Positions 16,359 to 25,147 of a DNA stretch of 64,000 nt are shown here, piece after piece. The notes under the pieces are model-generated. The model had not been told where the DNA came from. It did no database searches and saw only the letters and a program-made list of their open reading frames with translations. The translations under genes were made by a program, and so were the position numbers. Every line of letters begins with the position of its first letter. Position 1 is the stretch's first letter. This DNA is from an uncultured Pseudomonadota bacterium (GTDB taxonomy: Bacteria > Myxococcota_A > UBA796 > GCA-2862545), in assembly GCA_903861005.1 (NCBI GenBank), contig CAIOSP010000085.1, positions 1 to 64,000 of the forward strand, in the 5' to 3' direction.

Positions 16359-17021
16359 ATGCTGCACTTCGCCCGCGTCGTCCCGTTCTGGATGTTGGCT
16401 CTGACCGCGTGCGCCGCCGAACCGGGCGTCGTGCGCTCCGGCTGGAACGCCCAAGAGGTCACCCAAGCCGCGCCGCCGCTGGCCGCCGGTCAGGCCGAGG
16501 CCTACTTCGCGATGGGCTGCTTCTGGTGCGGCGAGAGCGACTTCGAGCCCGCGCCGGGCGTGGTCTCCGTCGTCAGCGGCTACACCGGCGGGTCCGTCGA
16601 GCACCCCAGCTACGAGCAGGTCAGCGGCGGTCGCACCGGCCACGCCGAGTCGGTGCGCGTGATCTACGACCCGACCAAGGTCACCTACGAGGCGCTGCTG
16701 ACGTGGTTCTGGCACCGTGTCGATCCGTTCGACGGTGGCGGGCAGTTCTGCGACCACGGCTCGCAGTACCGCCCGGTCATCTTCCCGCTCAACGCGGCCC
16801 AGCGCGCCGCCGCCGAGGCGTCCAAGGTGGCAATCGCCAAGGAGCTGGGCAAGCCGGTCGCCGTGACCATCGAGAAGCCCGGCACCTTCTGGGTGGCCGA
16901 GGCGCACCACCAGGACTTTTGCCACCTCAACGTCGAGCACTATACGGCCTACCGTACCGGCTGCGGGCGCGACGACCGCCTGCACGAGGTCTGGGGAGGC
17001 AAGGCCCCCGTTCATCCGTAA
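16359..17021 (+). CDS. msrA: Peptide methionine-S-sulfoxide reductase, predicted lipoprotein
   Basis: 220 residues. MsrA reduces methionine-S-sulfoxide in proteins. The catalytic motif is AMGCFWCGESDFE (nucleophile C54, with a second Cys at 57), followed by GYTGG, GHAESVRVIYDP and HHQDF, all typical. The N-terminus ends LALTAC with the lipobox Cys at residue 18, so this copy is exported and membrane-anchored, unlike cytosolic MsrA. A C-terminal Cys (YRTGCG) may act in recycling. ATG at 16359 has AGGAG five bases upstream. It heads the redox cluster running to 20822; an exported MsrA needs periplasmic electrons, and the TlpA and VKOR-DsbA proteins downstream are candidates. Confidence 0.93.
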   Translation: MLHFARVVPFWMLALTACAAEPGVVRSGWNAQEVTQAAPPLAAGQAEAYFAMGCFWCGESDFEPAPGVVSVVSGYTGGSVEHPSYEQVSGGRTGHAESVRVIYDPTKVTYEALLTWFWHRVDPFDGGGQFCDHGSQYRPVIFPLNAAQRAAAEASKVAIAKELGKPVAVTIEKPGTFWVAEAHHQDFCHLNVEHYTAYRTGCGRDDRLHEVWGGKAPVHP

Positions 17022-17107: not shown

Positions 17108-17563
17108 ATGAACCGCACCCTTCTGACCGCCGTCCTGCTGACCCTCACCGCCGTCGCGGTGTCTGCTGAGCCCACGCCCGAGTCGATCGTGGCCTACCGC
17201 AAGGTCAACATGGACGCCTACGGCAAGCACATGAAGGCGATCGGCATGGTCGTGAAGGGTGAGGTCGAGCGCCCCGCGTGGGCCGCCGCCGACGCCGACG
17301 CGCTCGCCGCGATGGCCAAGCACCTGGGCCAGCTCTTCCCCGCGGGCACGGGCCCGGACAACAAGTCGATCAAGACCGAGGCCAAGGCCGACATCTGGTC
17401 CAAGCCCGCGGACTTCGCCGCGGCCGTGAAGTCGTTCCAGGTGGAGACCGCCAAGCTCGCCGAGCTGTCGCACGGCACGGACTTCGAGGCCTTCAAGGCG
17501 CAGCTGCCCAAGGTCGGCAAGTCCTGCGGCGCCTGCCACGACGGCTTCAAGGTCGAGGATTGA
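17108..17563 (+). CDS. Cytochrome c' / c556-type protein
   Basis: 151 residues. A signal peptide (LLTAVLLTLTAVAVSA) is followed by a four-helix-bundle sequence with a single C-terminal haem motif C140-G-A-C143-H144. Both the position of the motif near the C-terminus and the helical pattern fit the cytochrome c'/c556 family, whose members carry electrons or bind NO/CO in the periplasm. Its stop codon overlaps the TTG start of the dihaem cytochrome gene as TTGA, so the two are translationally coupled. Confidence 0.88.
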   Translation: MNRTLLTAVLLTLTAVAVSAEPTPESIVAYRKVNMDAYGKHMKAIGMVVKGEVERPAWAAADADALAAMAKHLGQLFPAGTGPDNKSIKTEAKADIWSKPADFAAAVKSFQVETAKLAELSHGTDFEAFKAQLPKVGKSCGACHDGFKVED

Positions 17564-18381
17564 TCTCCAGCCTGCTGATCGCGGTCACCCTCTCCGCGCA
17601 CGCGCAGGACGCCGCGCGCGGAGAGGTGCTGGCGGCGTTTGGCGGCTGCGCCTCCTGCCACGTCTCGCCGCAAGGCGAGGCGTACGCCGGCGGCTACGCG
17701 ATCGAGACGCGCTTCGGGACGTTCTACGGTCCCAACATCACGCCCGACTTCTCCCAGGGCGTCGGCTCCTGGAGTCAGGCGGACTTCCTCCGCGCCATGC
17801 GCGAGGGCCATGGCCCCACTGGCGAGCCGTACTGGCCTGCGTTCCCGTACCTGTGGTTCACGCGCGCGTCGGACACCGACCTGTGGGACCTCTGGGCCTA
17901 CCTCAAGACCGTGCCCGCCAACCCGCGTCCCAACGACGAGCACCACATCAAGGCGCTCTACAAGCCCGACTTGTGGCTCTGGCGCGCGATCGCGTTCCGG
18001 CCCGGTTCGCTCAAGCTCCCCGCGGACACGCCCGAGGACGTCGCGCTCGGCGCGCAGCTCGTGGAGGGTATCGGCCACTGCGCCGGCTGCCACACCCCGC
18101 TCAACGGCTTTGGCAAGCCCATCGCCAAGCGGGCGTTCGGCGGGAACCACCAGCCGCCCGAGCGCGCGCCCAACATCACGCCCGACCCGGACGCCGGCAT
18201 CGGCGGGTGGACACGTAGCGACCTGACGACCTTCTTCGAGACCGGTATGACCGGCGAGGGCGACTACGTCGGTGGGCACATGGCGCGGATCGTGGAGAAC
18301 GGCACCGCCAAGCTGACTGAGCCTGAGCGCGCCGCGATCGTCGCGTATCTGCTGTCGCTTGGCCCGGTGGGCGCCGAGTAG
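17560..18381 (+). CDS. Dihaem cytochrome c
   Basis: 273 residues from TTG at 17560, which overlaps the previous stop and has GAGG upstream. The signal peptide is short (MISSLLIAVTLSAHA). Two CxxCH motifs lie at residues 30-34 (CASCH) and 174-178 (CAGCH). Each is followed by FGTFYGPNITPD or RAPNITPDPDAGIGGWT, the pattern of cytochrome subunits of membrane-bound alcohol, aldehyde and sugar dehydrogenases. No dehydrogenase gene is adjacent, so the partner is missing from this window; the cytochrome c' upstream may be the electron donor or acceptor. Confidence 0.88.
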   Translation: MISSLLIAVTLSAHAQDAARGEVLAAFGGCASCHVSPQGEAYAGGYAIETRFGTFYGPNITPDFSQGVGSWSQADFLRAMREGHGPTGEPYWPAFPYLWFTRASDTDLWDLWAYLKTVPANPRPNDEHHIKALYKPDLWLWRAIAFRPGSLKLPADTPEDVALGAQLVEGIGHCAGCHTPLNGFGKPIAKRAFGGNHQPPERAPNITPDPDAGIGGWTRSDLTTFFETGMTGEGDYVGGHMARIVENGTAKLTEPERAAIVAYLLSLGPVGAE

Positions 18382-18481: not shown

Positions 18482-18507
18482 ACCGGTTCGTGCCCAGGAG
18501 GGTGTGC

Positions 18508-18999
18508 ATGTGGTGGTGGATGTTGGCCGCGTCGGCGTGGGCGGCGCCTGAGATGATCCCGGCGGACGTGTTCGAGGCGGCCAAGCAGCCCGACGCGCCC
18601 ACGAAGATCGAGTTCCACATGGCGGACGGCACCACGCAGCACCTGACCGACCACAAGGGCCGCAAGCTCGTGCTGTCGTTCTGGGCGTCGTGGTGTGGGC
18701 CCTGTCGCAAGGAGCTGCCCGCGCTGTCGGCCTGGGCCAAGGAGAACCCCAACGTCGACGTGATCGCGGTGAACGTGGACCGCGACCGCAACATGGCGGA
18801 CCGCTTCCTGCGCGCGGTGCCGGTGGAGCTTCCCATCGCGTACGACCCCGACGCCAACGCGCTCGGCGGCTACGACGTCACCGGCATGCCCACCATGTTC
18901 GTGTTCGACACCAAGGGCGCGCTCGTGTTTCGCAAGGTGGGCTTCAATGAAGCCGCCGGCCTGACCGAGATCCTGACCGCCGTGCAGGGGGCCAAGTGA
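18508..18999 (+). CDS. TlpA-like periplasmic thioredoxin
   Basis: 163 residues from ATG at 18508, preceded by AGGAGG at 18496-18501. A short hydrophobic leader (MWWWMLAASAWA) precedes a TlpA/ResA-type thioredoxin fold with SFWASWCGPCRKELP (C63, C66), a typical WCxxC reductase motif, and the cis-Pro loop TGMPTMFVFD. TlpA-like proteins reduce disulfides in the periplasm, often for cytochrome c or copper-site maturation. The stop overlaps the GTG start of the VKOR fusion gene as GTGA, so the reductant and the disulfide-generating protein are made together. Confidence 0.9.
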   Translation: MWWWMLAASAWAAPEMIPADVFEAAKQPDAPTKIEFHMADGTTQHLTDHKGRKLVLSFWASWCGPCRKELPALSAWAKENPNVDVIAVNVDRDRNMADRFLRAVPVELPIAYDPDANALGGYDVTGMPTMFVFDTKGALVFRKVGFNEAAGLTEILTAVQGAK

Positions 19000-20822
19000 A
19001 CCGCAAGACCGCAGCCCTCGGGCTCCTCCTCGTGTTGCTGGCGGTCGGCGTGTTCGCCGGCGGCCTGATGACCTGGCACCACGACGTGCAGCTCTATGGC
19101 GGCCAGCAGGTCGAGCTGGTGGGCTGTCAGGAGTCGACGCTCGTCAGCTGCGACGTGGTGAACACCAGCGCGTGGAGCGAGCTGCTCGGCGTCCCGATCG
19201 CCACGCTCGGCATCCCGTTCTACCTGACGATGATGGCGCTCGCGCTCCTGGCGATCCGCGGCCGCGACGAAGCGCGCGCGCTGCTGATCGCGGGGGGCGT
19301 GTTCGCCACCGGCTACTCCGTGTTCCTGGCGTACATCTCGCTGCACGAGCTGAACTACGTGTGCCTGTGGTGCATGCGCATGTACGCGATCAACCTGTCG
19401 CTGCTGCTGCTGCCGTGGGTCGGCGGTCGTCCGCCCAAGCCGAGCTTCGACTTCATGGGCGGGCTGGCGGGTGTGTACGCCGCGTTGCTGATCGTGTCGG
19501 TCGGCGGCGAGCACGCCTACCGAAGCTCGATCAGCCACAGCTCGGGCGTCGCCGTGTCCTCCACGGCGGTGAAGCTCGACCGGGATCCGACGGGCCCCGC
19601 GCCCGCGCTCTCGTTTCAGGTCACGACCGAGGACGGCAACGCGCGCACGCTGACCCTTGAGCCCGACGACGCGTGGGCCGGCAACAAGGACGCCCAGGTC
19701 GCGGTCGTGATGTTCGCCGACCTGGAGTGCCCGTTCTGCAAGCGCACCAGCGCCGAGGTCGGCCGCCTGATGCAGACCTACGGCGACCGCGTGCTGTTCG
19801 TCTTCAAGCACTTCCCGATGGACCCGACCTGCAACGCGGGCGTGAAGAACAAGCTGCACCGCTCGGCGTGTGTGGCGGCCCGCGCGGCGGTGTGTGCGCA
19901 GCGTCAGGGTCGCTTCTGGGCCTTCCACGATCTGGCCTACAAGAACCAGCACCAGCTGGGTGACGACGCGCTGCGCGCCTACGCCGTCGAGGTGGGCGTG
20001 AACGGCGAGCAGTTCGACACGTGCATGCGCTCGACCGAGGCGGACGCGGTGGTGAAGGGCGACGCTGCGGCCGGTGCGCAGCTAGACATCCACGGCACGC
20101 CGCGCATCTTCATCAACGGCAAGCTCTATCGCAGCGGCTCTACCGCCGAGGTCATGGCGACCGACCTGGAGACCGCGCTCGGCGCGTCGGCTGCGGACGC
20201 CGCGGCCCACGCCGCCGCGCTCCGCGAGAAGGTGGACTCAGCACCCCCGATCCCCGCCGACGTGCCCGCGCAGCGCTCGGTGAAGTTCGGCGACAAGGCT
20301 TTCCAGATCGACACGTTTGAGGCGGCCGTCCACGACGGCAAGGCCGTGAGCGGCAAGCACGAGATCCCCGCGTTCGACGTGTCGTGGGCCGAGGCCAAGT
20401 CCGCCTGCGAGGCGTCGGGCAAGCGCCTGTGCACTGAGGCCGAGTGGGTCAGCGTCTGCCAGAACGCCGCCGCCGTGGACGACAACCATAACGGCGAGCT
20501 GGCCGACGACATGATCGAGGGCACGGCCTACCCATACGGCGACTACCACGACCCGCAGCGCTGCTGGGACGGCAAGTCGAGCGACGCGTTCCGCCCGGTC
20601 TACACTGGCGAGATGCCCGGGTGCGTCACCCCCACCGGCGTGTACGACATGACCGGCAACGTCGAGGAGTGGGTGGGCGACTCGACGGCGACCGCGGTGC
20701 TGCTCGGCGGCGCGTGGGACACCAGCGAGGACCACGCACGCTGCTACCGCCGCAACGACAGCTTCGGCGCCGGCTACTCCAGCGTGCGCACGGGCTTCCG
20801 CTGCTGCGCGTCGGCGCCGTAG
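18996..20822 (+). CDS. VKOR-DsbA-FGE-like triple fusion protein
   Basis: 608 residues from a GTG start overlapping the previous stop. Residues 1-170 are a VKOR membrane domain: loop Cys pair C44/C52, conserved Ser in SELLGVPIATLG, and active-site C123-L-W-C126. Residues about 230-400 are a DsbA-like thioredoxin with C245-P-F-C248 and cis-Pro loop HGTPRIFING. Residues about 430-608 match the formylglycine-generating/SUMF1 fold: VSWAEAKSACEASGKRLCTEAEW, TGVYDMTGNVEEWVGD and VRTGFRCC. The VKOR part should oxidise the DsbA part using quinone, driving disulfide formation. The FGE catalytic Cys-x4-Cys region is not preserved, so the third domain is probably not a formylglycine synthase; it carries many Cys of its own. 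Confidence 0.9.
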   Translation: MNRKTAALGLLLVLLAVGVFAGGLMTWHHDVQLYGGQQVELVGCQESTLVSCDVVNTSAWSELLGVPIATLGIPFYLTMMALALLAIRGRDEARALLIAGGVFATGYSVFLAYISLHELNYVCLWCMRMYAINLSLLLLPWVGGRPPKPSFDFMGGLAGVYAALLIVSVGGEHAYRSSISHSSGVAVSSTAVKLDRDPTGPAPALSFQVTTEDGNARTLTLEPDDAWAGNKDAQVAVVMFADLECPFCKRTSAEVGRLMQTYGDRVLFVFKHFPMDPTCNAGVKNKLHRSACVAARAAVCAQRQGRFWAFHDLAYKNQHQLGDDALRAYAVEVGVNGEQFDTCMRSTEADAVVKGDAAAGAQLDIHGTPRIFINGKLYRSGSTAEVMATDLETALGASAADAAAHAAALREKVDSAPPIPADVPAQRSVKFGDKAFQIDTFEAAVHDGKAVSGKHEIPAFDVSWAEAKSACEASGKRLCTEAEWVSVCQNAAAVDDNHNGELADDMIEGTAYPYGDYHDPQRCWDGKSSDAFRPVYTGEMPGCVTPTGVYDMTGNVEEWVGDSTATAVLLGGAWDTSEDHARCYRRNDSFGAGYSSVRTGFRCCASAP

Positions 20823-20841: not shown

Positions 20842-20866
20842 GAGGCCGCGCGACGTGCGTGGCCTC
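20842..20866. terminator. Bidirectional hairpin between convergent genes
   Basis: GAGGCCGCGC (20842-20851) pairs with GCGTGGCCTC (20857-20866), one G-T wobble, around a GACGT loop. It sits between the stops of two convergent genes and touches the stop codon of the minus-strand gene. There is no T tract. Confidence 0.5.
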
Positions 20867-22983
20867 TACGGGAGCGTGACCTCGACCGTGCGATCGACGC
20901 CCGGGATCACCGCGATGGTCGCGGGGTCAAACGGCGGCACGTCGACCGCGAACACGAGCTTGCCCGCGGGCAGGTCGGCGGAGACGTGCAGCGGCGTCAC
21001 CAGCCCCTCGCGGCCCACCAGCCCAGGTGCGAACGGCGCCTGCGCGACGATGGCGCCTGTGTCGTCGCGCACCATCAGGCGCGGCGCGCGCACGATCACG
21101 TTGAGGAAGAAGCCACCGTTCCACGCGTAGCCGCGCAGCTGGTTGCTGTGCAGCGCCAGCTCCTGGTGATCGCGGGTCTCGCGCAGCGTGATCAGCGCGT
21201 AGATCGTGTTGGTCGGTGACGCGACCGTGGGGCCCGTGTCGAGCGACACCAACCAGCGCCGTGCGCCGCCGGCGTCCTCCAGGCGGACCGCGGTGTTCGC
21301 GGGCACGCCAGGGCCGTCGTCGAAGGTGATCTGCTCCTCGGGCGTGAGGATGTAGCGCTGCACCATGTTGGACGGGCACAGGCCGGTGGCCGGCTGGAAC
21401 CGCACGATCGCCGTGTCGGGCCCGAGCGTGGCCGTCGAGAGCAGCGTCGCGGGCTCGGCGCCTGGACCTAGCGCCTGTGTCAGATCTGCCTGCGTCAGCC
21501 CGCCCACGAGCGTGGGGTCCTGGTGGTCGATCACGAACACGGCAAAGCACGGCGGCGCGGCCGGGCCCTCGAACCGCGCGCCATGCGCCTGCAGCAGCGC
21601 GTCCACCGGCACGGCCTCTTCACGACGCCAGCCGTTGCCGTACTTCCACGACACCGCGGTGGTGTGTCGTACGAGCTCAGGGAGTGACATGCCAGTGTCC
21701 ACCTGCGCCGCGTCCAGCCAGCGCGACATGCGCCCCCAGGCGAGCGTGTGGCCGCCCGCAGCCGTGGTCTGCGCATCCGCCGCCACCAGCCGTAGGCCGA
21801 CCGACGCCGTGAGCAGCAGCGCGAGACCCGTCGCCACCGCCTGGCTGCGCGCGCGCGTCGCCTTGATCAGCGCGTCGACGCCTAGACCCGCCGCCACCGC
21901 GGTGACGGGCACGAGGAAGATCAGGTAGCGAGACACATTGCCCGACACGAAGTTGTACGAGCGCGAGCGGGCGAGCGCAATGACGCCGCCGACCAGCGCG
22001 ATCGCGGCGGCGGCGGCCAGCGCGCGCGTCGACTTGGGCTCCCCGCGCCGCAGCGCCAGGCCCAGCCCGATCGCGACGAGCAGCGGCCCGATCGCCTCCA
22101 ACGGTAGGAGCATGCGCACGTCGATCATCGACGACATGGCGAGCACGGTGGTGTGCGACGCGAGCGTCAGCACCGCGCCGACCATGTTGTCCCACGGCCG
22201 CGCGCTGGCGAGCACGGGGTGGGTGAGGTCCTCGATCTGCGCGGGGTTGAGCAGCTGCGTCACGTTCGTGAAGTCGTGGCGGAGCTCATGGATCATGTAC
22301 GGCGTGTACACGGTCAGCGCGCCGAGCAGCGCGCCGAGCAGCCCGCGACCGAGCCGCGGCGTGCGCGCCAGCAAGAGCCCGGGCAGCATCACCATCGCGA
22401 GCACGCCCGCGGTGACGTGCATCTGCGCCGCGAGCGCGAGCGCGGCCCCCCAGCCCACCAGCGCGCGCGCGTCCTGGTCCACGAGCACGCGCACCCAGCA
22501 CGCGGTGCCCACGGCCAGGAACAGGCTCATGAACGCGGGGTTCCACAGCTGCGACTGGTTGGTGACGTCGGGTGCCGCGCTCAGGAAGACGGCGGCGGCG
22601 ACGGCGCCCGCGAACAGGCCGCGTCCGCGCCCGACCGTCCAGCCGATCACCGCGGCGGCCAGCGTGTCGAACCCGACCTGCGTGAGCCACGCGGCGCGCG
22701 GGCTGTCGCTCACCCACGACACCAGCCACAGCAGCAGGTGGATCGCGCCGCCTGGCGTGCCGGCGCCCACGCCGTAGGACAGCTCGGCGCCCGCGGTGGG
22801 CAGCTCGAAGAAGGGGACGTGGCTGCGGGCCAACTCGCGGTCGGACCAGACGACGTATTGGAAGTCGCCGGTGAGTTGTCGGCGCAGCGCGACGTAGGCC
22901 GTCGCGGCGATCAGCAGCGCACCCAGCGCGCGGACCACGGTCGGGTCGCGGACGTCGGCGGGGCTGGACGGGCGATCGACCAT
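20866..22983 (-). CDS. GT-C/ArnT-like polytopic membrane protein, copy 1
   Basis: 705 residues from ATG at 22983 (a GTG at 23019 is also possible). The first ~440 residues contain about ten to twelve hydrophobic segments with loops such as QYVVWSDRELARS, LWNPAFMSLFLAVG and AAQMHVTAGVL, an arrangement like GT-C glycosyltransferases (family 39/ArnT) that use polyprenyl-phosphate sugars. The C-terminal ~260 residues are soluble and include NMVQRYILTPEEQITFDDG and LHSNQLRGYAWNGGFFLN, which recur nearly unchanged in the paralogue upstream (23027-25147). The family is inferred from topology; I do not recognise a precise subfamily. Confidence 0.7.
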   Translation of the reverse strand: MVDRPSSPADVRDPTVVRALGALLIAATAYVALRRQLTGDFQYVVWSDRELARSHVPFFELPTAGAELSYGVGAGTPGGAIHLLLWLVSWVSDSPRAAWLTQVGFDTLAAAVIGWTVGRGRGLFAGAVAAAVFLSAAPDVTNQSQLWNPAFMSLFLAVGTACWVRVLVDQDARALVGWGAALALAAQMHVTAGVLAMVMLPGLLLARTPRLGRGLLGALLGALTVYTPYMIHELRHDFTNVTQLLNPAQIEDLTHPVLASARPWDNMVGAVLTLASHTTVLAMSSMIDVRMLLPLEAIGPLLVAIGLGLALRRGEPKSTRALAAAAAIALVGGVIALARSRSYNFVSGNVSRYLIFLVPVTAVAAGLGVDALIKATRARSQAVATGLALLLTASVGLRLVAADAQTTAAGGHTLAWGRMSRWLDAAQVDTGMSLPELVRHTTAVSWKYGNGWRREEAVPVDALLQAHGARFEGPAAPPCFAVFVIDHQDPTLVGGLTQADLTQALGPGAEPATLLSTATLGPDTAIVRFQPATGLCPSNMVQRYILTPEEQITFDDGPGVPANTAVRLEDAGGARRWLVSLDTGPTVASPTNTIYALITLRETRDHQELALHSNQLRGYAWNGGFFLNVIVRAPRLMVRDDTGAIVAQAPFAPGLVGREGLVTPLHVSADLPAGKLVFAVDVPPFDPATIAVIPGVDRTVEVTLP

Positions 22984-23026: not shown

Positions 23027-25147
23027 TCACGGGGCGCCGCCCGGCAGCACGAACTCCCGGTCGACCCGCGCGCCAGGGCGCGGCCCCGTGTTGCCCATGG
23101 CGGTCGGCTCCAGCTGCAAGCGCAGCGTCACCGTCGCGCCCGCGGGCCAGCGCGTGTCCCCGGCGAGCGGGGCGAGCGCGCCGTCGCCGCCGACCGTGCC
23201 GTCGGCGAGCACCAGTTGGCCCAGCGGCGCGCCGTCCGCCCCGGTCGCGACCAACGTCGGCGCGATCACCCAGGCGTCCAGGAAGAACCCGGCGTTCCAC
23301 GCGTGGCCGCGGAGCTGGTTGCTGTGCAGCGTCCAGGTGACCACGTCGTCGTGCCGCTCCGCGGTGAGCAGCGCCAGCACGTCCCACGGCGGCGTGAGCC
23401 GACCGTCCGAGGCGTCCACGCGCAGCAGCCACCGGGTGGCGCCGTTGGCGGGCGGCAGCGGCGTCGCGGCCTCCGAGGGCGCGCTGGGACCTAGATCCTT
23501 GGTGATCTGCTCGGCGGGGGTGAGCAGGTAGCGCTGGCTCATGTTCGACGGGCAACGCGCGCGGGACGTGGCGTAGCGCACCATCCACACGCCGCCGTCG
23601 AGCGCCACCTGGTCCAGCACCTGATCGACGGGCACGTCCGGCCCGAGCGCGCGCTGCAGCTCCGCGACGCCGATCTGCGCGAGCACGCGGCGGTCGGGAC
23701 CGGAGTCGGGGAGGATCGCCACGCACGGCGGCGCGGCGGACCCGGCGAACGGCTCACCCTCGGGGCCGAGCAGCGCGTCCACCGGCATCGCCAGCTCGCG
23801 GGCCCAGCCGCTGCGGCCCTCGTTGGTCAGCACGACCGCGCGTCGCGTCAGCTCGGCGCGTGACGTGCCCAGCTTGAGCGCGGCGTCGTCGAGCCAGGCC
23901 TCAGTCGCCCGGCAGCTCCGCGTGGCGCGTGCCTCCACGGCGAACGAGCGGGACGCGAGGAGTCGCTCGCCCATCGACAGCGAGAGCGCTCCGGAGACCA
24001 CCAGCGCGCCCGCGACGTGCCGACGCCCGGCCACCGTCACCGCGTGATCGGCCGCGAGCCCCGCGAGCCAAGACAGCGGCCCCGCGAGCACGAGCAGGTA
24101 GCGGGAGTTGTTCGACCGCACGAAGTCAAACTCGTCGTTGGTGCAGATCACCAGCAGCAGCACACCGCACACCACCGCGAGGCGCAGGCCCAGCGCGCGC
24201 GTCACCTCCACGCGCGGCGAGCGATCGCGCAGCAACGACACGACGCCCGCGATCGCGAGCAGCGGCGCCACCGCGGCGACACCCCACACCACCCACGCGG
24301 GCCCCTGGTTGCTCAGCAGATCGAGCGGGCGATCCCCCGAGAGCGAGCGCAGCGCCGTCACCACCGACAGCAGGTAGGGCAGCGCGATCCAGCCGCGACC
24401 GCCGCCGCCTTCGGCCATCAGGCGTGTGTTCGGCCAGCCGTGCCGCGCCTCGCTGATCAGGTAGGGCGCGTAGGCGGCGATCACGCCCAGCGCGGCGATC
24501 GACCACGCGCGCGCGGCGCGTCGCGGACGGGCGCGCAGCAACGACGGCAGCATCACCACGCCGAGCACCAGCGCCGTGACATGCATCTGCGCGCCCAGCG
24601 CGAGCGCGAGCGCCCACACCACAATGCCGCGCGCGTCGCCGTCCGACAGCACGCGCACCCAGCCCACGGTCGCCGCCGCGACGAACAGCGAGAGCCACGC
24701 CGGGTTCCACAGCGGCTGCTGGTTGATCACGTTGGGGCCGAGCGTGAGGAACACCGACGCCGACACCGCCGCCGCGATCCAGCCGACGCGCGCGCGAACC
24801 GACAAGGCGATCACCAGCGCGGCGAGCGCGTCCAGCCCCACCTGAAGCTGCCAGGCGAGGCGCGGCCCCGGCGCGATCCGGTCGGCGATCCACAGCAGCA
24901 GGTGGAACGCACCGCCAGGGATGCGGCTGCCCGATCCGGTGGACAGCTCAGGGCCGGTGGTCGGCAGCGACAGCAGGTCCACCTGGCTGCGCGCCAGGTC
25001 GCGATCGGACCAGACGACGTACTGGCAGTCGCCATCACGGAGCCGCTGCAGCGCGAACGCGGCGGTGGCGACGCACAGCAAGATCGCGAGCGCGTCGAGC
25101 GCGCGCCGCGCGTTCGGGGAGTCGTGCAGGGCGTGGTGGCGGTCCAA
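23027..25147 (-). CDS. GT-C/ArnT-like polytopic membrane protein, copy 2 (paralogue)
   Basis: 706 residues from a TTG start at 25147. It has the same design as its neighbour: QYVVWSDRDLARSQV in the first periplasmic loop, PLWNPAWLSLFVAA, GAQMHVTALVL, then a soluble C-terminal domain with NMSQRYLLTPAEQITKDLG and LHSNQLRGHAWNAGFFLDA. It is a tandem duplication whose copies have diverged. The first-loop WSDRD/E acidic pair is a candidate catalytic site, since GT-C enzymes use an Asp/Glu in this loop. No good ribosome-binding site was seen. The stop lies 43 bp before the downstream copy's ATG. Confidence 0.7.
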   Translation of the reverse strand: MDRHHALHDSPNARRALDALAILLCVATAAFALQRLRDGDCQYVVWSDRDLARSQVDLLSLPTTGPELSTGSGSRIPGGAFHLLLWIADRIAPGPRLAWQLQVGLDALAALVIALSVRARVGWIAAAVSASVFLTLGPNVINQQPLWNPAWLSLFVAAATVGWVRVLSDGDARGIVVWALALALGAQMHVTALVLGVVMLPSLLRARPRRAARAWSIAALGVIAAYAPYLISEARHGWPNTRLMAEGGGGRGWIALPYLLSVVTALRSLSGDRPLDLLSNQGPAWVVWGVAAVAPLLAIAGVVSLLRDRSPRVEVTRALGLRLAVVCGVLLLVICTNDEFDFVRSNNSRYLLVLAGPLSWLAGLAADHAVTVAGRRHVAGALVVSGALSLSMGERLLASRSFAVEARATRSCRATEAWLDDAALKLGTSRAELTRRAVVLTNEGRSGWARELAMPVDALLGPEGEPFAGSAAPPCVAILPDSGPDRRVLAQIGVAELQRALGPDVPVDQVLDQVALDGGVWMVRYATSRARCPSNMSQRYLLTPAEQITKDLGPSAPSEAATPLPPANGATRWLLRVDASDGRLTPPWDVLALLTAERHDDVVTWTLHSNQLRGHAWNAGFFLDAWVIAPTLVATGADGAPLGQLVLADGTVGGDGALAPLAGDTRWPAGATVTLRLQLEPTAMGNTGPRPGARVDREFVLPGGAP

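Follow-up and report, generated by a model that had tools for sequence, protein, structure and literature searches.

Why should a membrane enzyme that forms disulfide bonds carry, at its C-terminal end, a domain of the sulfatase-activating FGE/SUMF1 fold? This question is raised by an uninterrupted open reading frame at 18996..20822 on the plus strand of the window, as we call the whole stretch of 64,000 nucleotides analyzed here. It encodes a protein of 608 amino acids, and there is a four-base overlap between its GTG start and the stop codon of the gene before it. From the letters alone, the original prediction had recognized VKOR, DsbA and an FGE-like domain in this one protein. The domain search bore this composition out, as the Pfam models VKOR, Thioredoxin_4 and FGE-sulfatase all exceed their curated cut-offs. 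The VKOR domain, a quinone-linked disulfide generator, spans residues 10–139 (19023..19412, plus strand; PF07884, E 5e-23, 82 bits versus a cut-off of 27.5), and a search of the own genome placed it at the same positions. Both of its cysteine pairs are present, the loop pair C44/C52 and the CxxC pair C123/C126, and each of these cysteines is at least 98% conserved among intact relatives. A predicted fifth transmembrane helix (AlphaFold2, residues 151–180, 19446..19535, plus strand) would join VKOR to the periplasmic part, its transmembrane role being assigned by analogy to known VKOR-thioredoxin fusions. It is followed by a DsbA-like thioredoxin domain at residues 223–387 (19662..20156, plus strand; PF13462, E 2e-22, 81 bits versus 23.2) with the motif C245-PF-C248 and the TP dipeptide of the cis-proline (Pro 369). 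A Foldseek search with the whole protein returned DsbA/BdbD matches for this part. The alignment thus agreed with the predicted positions C44/C52, C123/C126 and C245/C248, and with the view that both redox sites are complete.

The third domain covers approximately residues 426–608 (20271..20819, plus strand) and was assigned by Pfam (PF03781), structure prediction and Foldseek; the FGE-sulfatase match itself extends over residues 451–604 (E 1e-15, above the curated cut-off). The AlphaFold2 model of the whole protein was reasonable for each domain (pLDDT 80), but its pTM of 0.52 leaves the relative placement of the domains uncertain. Because DsbA dominated the whole-protein Foldseek search, we predicted the structure of the FGE domain on its own and used it as a separate query. 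Built from 36 relatives, this model reached a pLDDT of 93 and a pTM of 0.90, and its closest folds in the PDB were EgtB, CalU17, human FGE, SUMF2 and PvdO (E ~1e-9 to 1e-7), which confirms the proposed SUMF1/FGE fold. The best PDB sequence match was the catalytically dead SUMF2. Only positions 85–254 of the 255 in the Pfam model were matched, leaving the first third of it unmatched, so that the domain is a short form of the family.

Next, we asked whether this domain could be catalytically active. The copper-binding catalytic pair of human FGE, which we take to be C336/C341 with C346 as a structural cysteine, was claimed to be missing here. Indeed, a profile alignment to SUMF2, CalU17 and SUMF1 revealed no cysteine equivalent to C336 or C341. 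Judging by CalU17, which aligns without gaps (VRC...GFRC), and by the distance of 19–20 residues to GFRC, C583 is the probable counterpart of the structural C346 rather than of C336/C341, although a gapped HMMER alignment to SUMF1 places it nearer C341. Two further cysteines, C471 and C488, match the partner residues in the two disulfides known from FGE. The domain is rich in cysteine, as predicted, and eight cysteines are invariant in 71/71 aligned proteins. All eight, together with the FRCC ending, are likewise invariant in FGE-like lipoproteins that stand alone and lack DsbA; five of these, from Sorangium and its relatives (L024–L026, L028, L029), were aligned. Since the remaining four cysteines are common to these lipoproteins, they most likely form two more disulfides. 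The same finding fits structural disulfides in general and speaks against the suggestion that the domain uses the DsbA cysteines in a copper reaction. Homology to FGE and EgtB and the thiol donor next door would suit an enzyme, that is, a copper or iron oxygenase or a formylglycine-forming domain borrowing the DsbA cysteines. However, the catalytic pair and the first third of the family model are missing, and one genus retains the domain after loss of the catalytic cysteines of DsbA and VKOR. Copper or formylglycine chemistry by this domain is therefore unlikely, and we give the enzyme explanation as a whole very little credence. Furthermore, no DinB domain, the type providing the iron-binding His residues of EgtB/SenA, was found by Pfam in the 608-residue protein, and its scores against EgtB/SenA-type NCBIfam models lie far below the cut-offs. 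The fused proteins also contain an Asp/Asn-rich loop (D495-DNHNGELADDMIEG-509, 20478..20522, plus strand, from the alignment), which is missing from the five aligned lipoproteins; as a guess, it could bind Ca2+.

To what extent is this architecture conserved? When 379 sampled genomes of Myxococcota were searched with a profile, the order from VKOR to FGE turned up in at least about 50 genomes of many families, a figure that was counted by hand from the match table and is a lower bound. A scan of genome contigs with a degenerate pattern, which reaches close relatives only, found approximately 20 loci with the same domain order at 32–69% identity. We looked for a frameshift or an assembly join between the DsbA and FGE parts, and both are ruled out by the recurrence of this order in the approximately 50 genomes. 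Consequently, the original observation stands. The alignment comprised 71 distinct proteins after one row, an antisense reading frame (L016_7109), was dropped. Besides the FGE cysteines, four additional cysteines of DsbA are invariant in this set. The mean pairwise identity amounts to 0.50 for FGE, 0.45 for DsbA and 0.34 for VKOR, and 31/59 near-invariant sites fall within FGE, which is the best-conserved domain of these proteins. Fold and conservation together rule out that the domain is an ordinary linker. A mere rigid spacer between DsbA and TlpA would agree with the lack of a recognizable catalytic site and with the four-domain relatives (see below), where FGE has a thioredoxin domain on either side. 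Yet the highest conservation of all domains is unexpected for a spacer, and in the clade of the window FGE is C-terminal, with nothing beyond it to be spaced, which makes this explanation decidedly improbable. Of note, one locus labeled Rhodobacterales (L013) seemingly lies on a contig that the genome survey (G325) assigns to the window's own family and is probably a misnamed metagenome-assembled genome.

The comparison also revealed a fourth component, which had been overlooked in the original prediction. In most relatives, FGE is followed within the same protein by a TlpA/ResA-like domain with a WCxPC motif. Proteins of the window's clade stop at FGE, and here a separate tlpA gene lies directly upstream in 13/13 complete unfused loci, with the four-base overlap between both genes in nearly all of them. 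The gene in the window (18490..18999, plus strand, with a possible later ATG start at 18508) encodes a periplasmic thioredoxin with the motif WCGPCRKE; the Redoxin/AhpC-TSA fold assigned by Pfam, the WCxxC and the following Glu are all present. Every copy that is not cut by a contig end is accompanied by TlpA, fused or upstream, and most of these modules retain WCxPCxxE. The same motif is found in ResA, where its Glu has a known role. A quick tree with modest supports grouped the upstream TlpAs together, at a position amid the fused domains and separate from CcmG, and the separate-TlpA forms made up one clade of 11 rows in the protein tree. This suggests that the upstream TlpA is orthologous to the C-terminal domain of the four-domain relatives. 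Tree placement and constant linkage imply that TlpA belongs to the VKOR-DsbA-FGE unit, and by its placement a single split or fusion would account for both forms. Further arrangements occur as well. One locus (L093:6032-10715, minus strand) has three tandem genes whose ends overlap, for a three-domain protein, a TlpA-like protein and a four-domain protein. Another (L130, genome G221) has a frame of 998 amino acids with two separate profile matches, which hint either at a VKOR-DsbA part with a second stretch of DsbA-FGE-TlpA behind it or at a long linker.

Altogether, we favor the interpretation of a membrane-anchored disulfide machine for exported proteins, composed of a VKOR-DsbA oxidase, a non-catalytic FGE docking domain and a TlpA reducing arm, to which we assign a probability of roughly 45%. 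DsbA proteins are known to oxidize substrates, with VKOR handing the electrons on to quinone (PMC12421883). By the same route, the DsbA domain would oxidize the thiols of a substrate, and electrons would pass from DsbA to the VKOR cysteines and finally to quinone. The FGE domain, catalytically dead and stapled by disulfides, would most likely dock or position the substrates. We infer this role from its conservation, the lost active site and the binding precedents among FGE-type C-lectins, as FGE domains represent a ligand-binding subtype of the C-type lectin fold (PMC10907252). The earlier proposal that the domain binds or presents substrates therefore remains our best guess. TlpA, fused or co-encoded, might add a reducing or proofreading arm of the ResA/CcmG type, which would probably be recharged, i.e., kept reduced, by DsbD. 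Such a reducing arm working against an oxidase has a precedent in Bacillus subtilis, where apocytochrome c is subject to the opposing actions of ResA and the BdbCD oxidase (PMC3884852). However, a reducing TlpA and an oxidizing DsbA in one unit could short-circuit each other. The composition, the intact redox motifs, the missing FGE pair and the TlpA linkage are established by the data, and the direction of electron flow through TlpA is, like the docking and the nature of the substrates, our inference.

The succession of thioredoxin, binding domain and thioredoxin would make this layout loosely PDI-like. A more far-reaching version is an independently evolved, membrane-wired and PDI-like foldase, in which VKOR-DsbA is joined by a dead-FGE receptor and TlpA proofreading, and which in one lineage has become a redox-dead chaperone or receptor. 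We regard this version as possible, albeit on the unlikely side. The lineage in question is one genus (g21), represented by three genomes (L136–L138). In its proteins, the CxxC of DsbA is gone, as are some of the catalytic VKOR cysteines, and the TlpA motif is degraded where the tail is complete; all eight FGE cysteines and the structural cysteines of DsbA are retained. The identity to the nearest intact relatives is 0.49 for FGE and 0.26 for VKOR. This pattern suggests that FGE function outlasts the oxidase, and the FGE part appears to have a function beyond it, at least in this genus. It also counts against the oxidase machine, since some function of these copies would be independent of oxidation. 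At the same time, this natural redox-dead genus is a ready control for dissecting the system.

Could the FGE domain be the center of a redox- or ligand-sensing envelope protein, with sensing or tethering as its task and with redox domains that support its folding or signaling instead of acting on general substrates? Its top rank in conservation and its survival beyond the catalytic cysteines in the genus described above would be in line with this, as would the Asp/Asn-rich loop confined to the fused proteins in our alignment. Additionally, a putative sensor role has been put forward for FGE-type C-lectin folds of conflict proteins (PMC10907252). However, the DsbA CxxC is intact in 67/70 proteins in which the site is present, the proteins lack an output domain such as a kinase or a sigma factor, and the neighboring genes vary. 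We therefore consider a sensor quite unlikely.

As a next step, we inspected the genomic neighborhood. Upstream of the unit, an operon-like series on the plus strand encodes an exported methionine sulfoxide reductase MsrA (16359..17021, Pfam PMSR, E 2e-52), a cytochrome c' (17108..17563, Cytochrom_C_2, E 3e-28) and a c-type cytochrome with two CxxCH heme sites (17560..18381, Cytochrom_C and motifs), followed by TlpA and the VKOR-DsbA-FGE gene. MsrA is a possible client of TlpA; this arrangement fits the precedent of pneumococcus, in which a thioredoxin-family lipoprotein reduces an extracellular methionine sulfoxide reductase (PMC3914529). The two cytochromes would suit a helper protein devoted to the maturation of c-type cytochromes: DsbA/VKOR would oxidize the CxxC of the apocytochrome, TlpA would re-reduce it for heme attachment, and FGE would hold the apoprotein. 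For example, the four-domain gene of family f7 adjoins a divergent ccmABCEFGH operon (L102, L103 and L105; L106 by clustering), a five-heme cytochrome gene lies just upstream in another locus (L195), and the antagonism of ResA and BdbCD mentioned above takes place on an apocytochrome. However, the f7 loci represent one family and are not independent, and the 11 loci of family f13 are flanked by NAGPA, PEGA, Kelch-like and DUF11 proteins instead of cytochromes. CxxCH proteins within seven genes were found in only 3/38 loci, and elsewhere in the window's genome there is a complete ccm operon that includes a separate CcmG. As the support is lineage-specific, cytochrome maturation is rejected as a general role; we judge the explanation unlikely and treat a cytochrome role of the unit as a lead, not as a conclusion. 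No constant substrate gene was found among the neighbors of the compared loci. The same genome also contains DsbD and two further VKOR proteins without FGE. In view of these proteins and the full ccm operon, the VKOR-DsbA-FGE protein looks like a specialized second system.

How does this protein relate to known systems? The literature searched, whose coverage excludes most subscription journals, contained no description of the VKOR-DsbA-FGE layout, in line with the initial assessment that a protein of this kind is not known to have been described. It is a real and conserved, apparently undescribed variant of the VKOR-DsbA fusions. Synechococcus VKOR (PDB 4nv2/3kp9), which it resembles in both sequence and fold, shares the four-cysteine VKOR core and a C-terminal periplasmic thioredoxin fold. 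However, the thioredoxin is of the DsbA type here instead of the cyanobacterial Trx, and the FGE domain and the linked TlpA come in addition. Human SUMF2 (pFGE, PDB 1y4j) likewise has an FGE fold without catalytic cysteines, but is a stand-alone ER protein with a longer N-terminal part and no attached disulfide oxidase. Similarly, the stand-alone myxobacterial lipoproteins share the eight cysteines and the FRCC ending, but neither VKOR/DsbA nor the Asp/Asn-rich loop. The TlpA module has the family fold and the WCxPCxxE of ResA/CcmG/TlpA thioredoxins; it differs from CcmG in forming a distinct clade tied to VKOR-DsbA-FGE. Eukaryotic PDI is comparable only in its way of working, in that a domain that may bind substrates is flanked by two domains of the thioredoxin fold. 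It is not homologous as a whole, and its a-b-b'-a' architecture of thioredoxin folds is not matched, since the middle domain here has an FGE fold and the oxidant is built in. The nearest precedent in kind is DsbI, likewise a membrane disulfide generator with an additional periplasmic non-thioredoxin domain, in its case a C-terminal beta-propeller joined to a DsbB core (PMC5403849). Nevertheless, it differs in its DsbB instead of VKOR, in its propeller instead of FGE and in the lack of a fused DsbA.

The range of modules that a disulfide-forming enzyme can carry is thereby widened. In many Myxococcota, a fold best known from sulfatase activation, here lacking the catalytic cysteines, shows the highest conservation within a VKOR-DsbA oxidase, which is in turn linked to a thioredoxin of the reductase type. 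If FGE recruits substrates, these bacteria would offer a system with oxidation, binding and proofreading in one dissectable piece, and this would hint at a role of the numerous dead and Cys-stapled FGE domains in myxobacteria. Finally, two minor observations concern the same genome. Downstream of the unit, the minus strand of the window encodes two similar-looking and probably polytopic proteins of ~705 amino acids in tandem (20866-22983 and 23027-25147), the first of them without a Pfam match. Elsewhere, another protein (L122, G000:C165:2032-2658) combines an NTPase-like N-terminal part, by eye of the NACHT/STAND type, with a terminal FGE domain.
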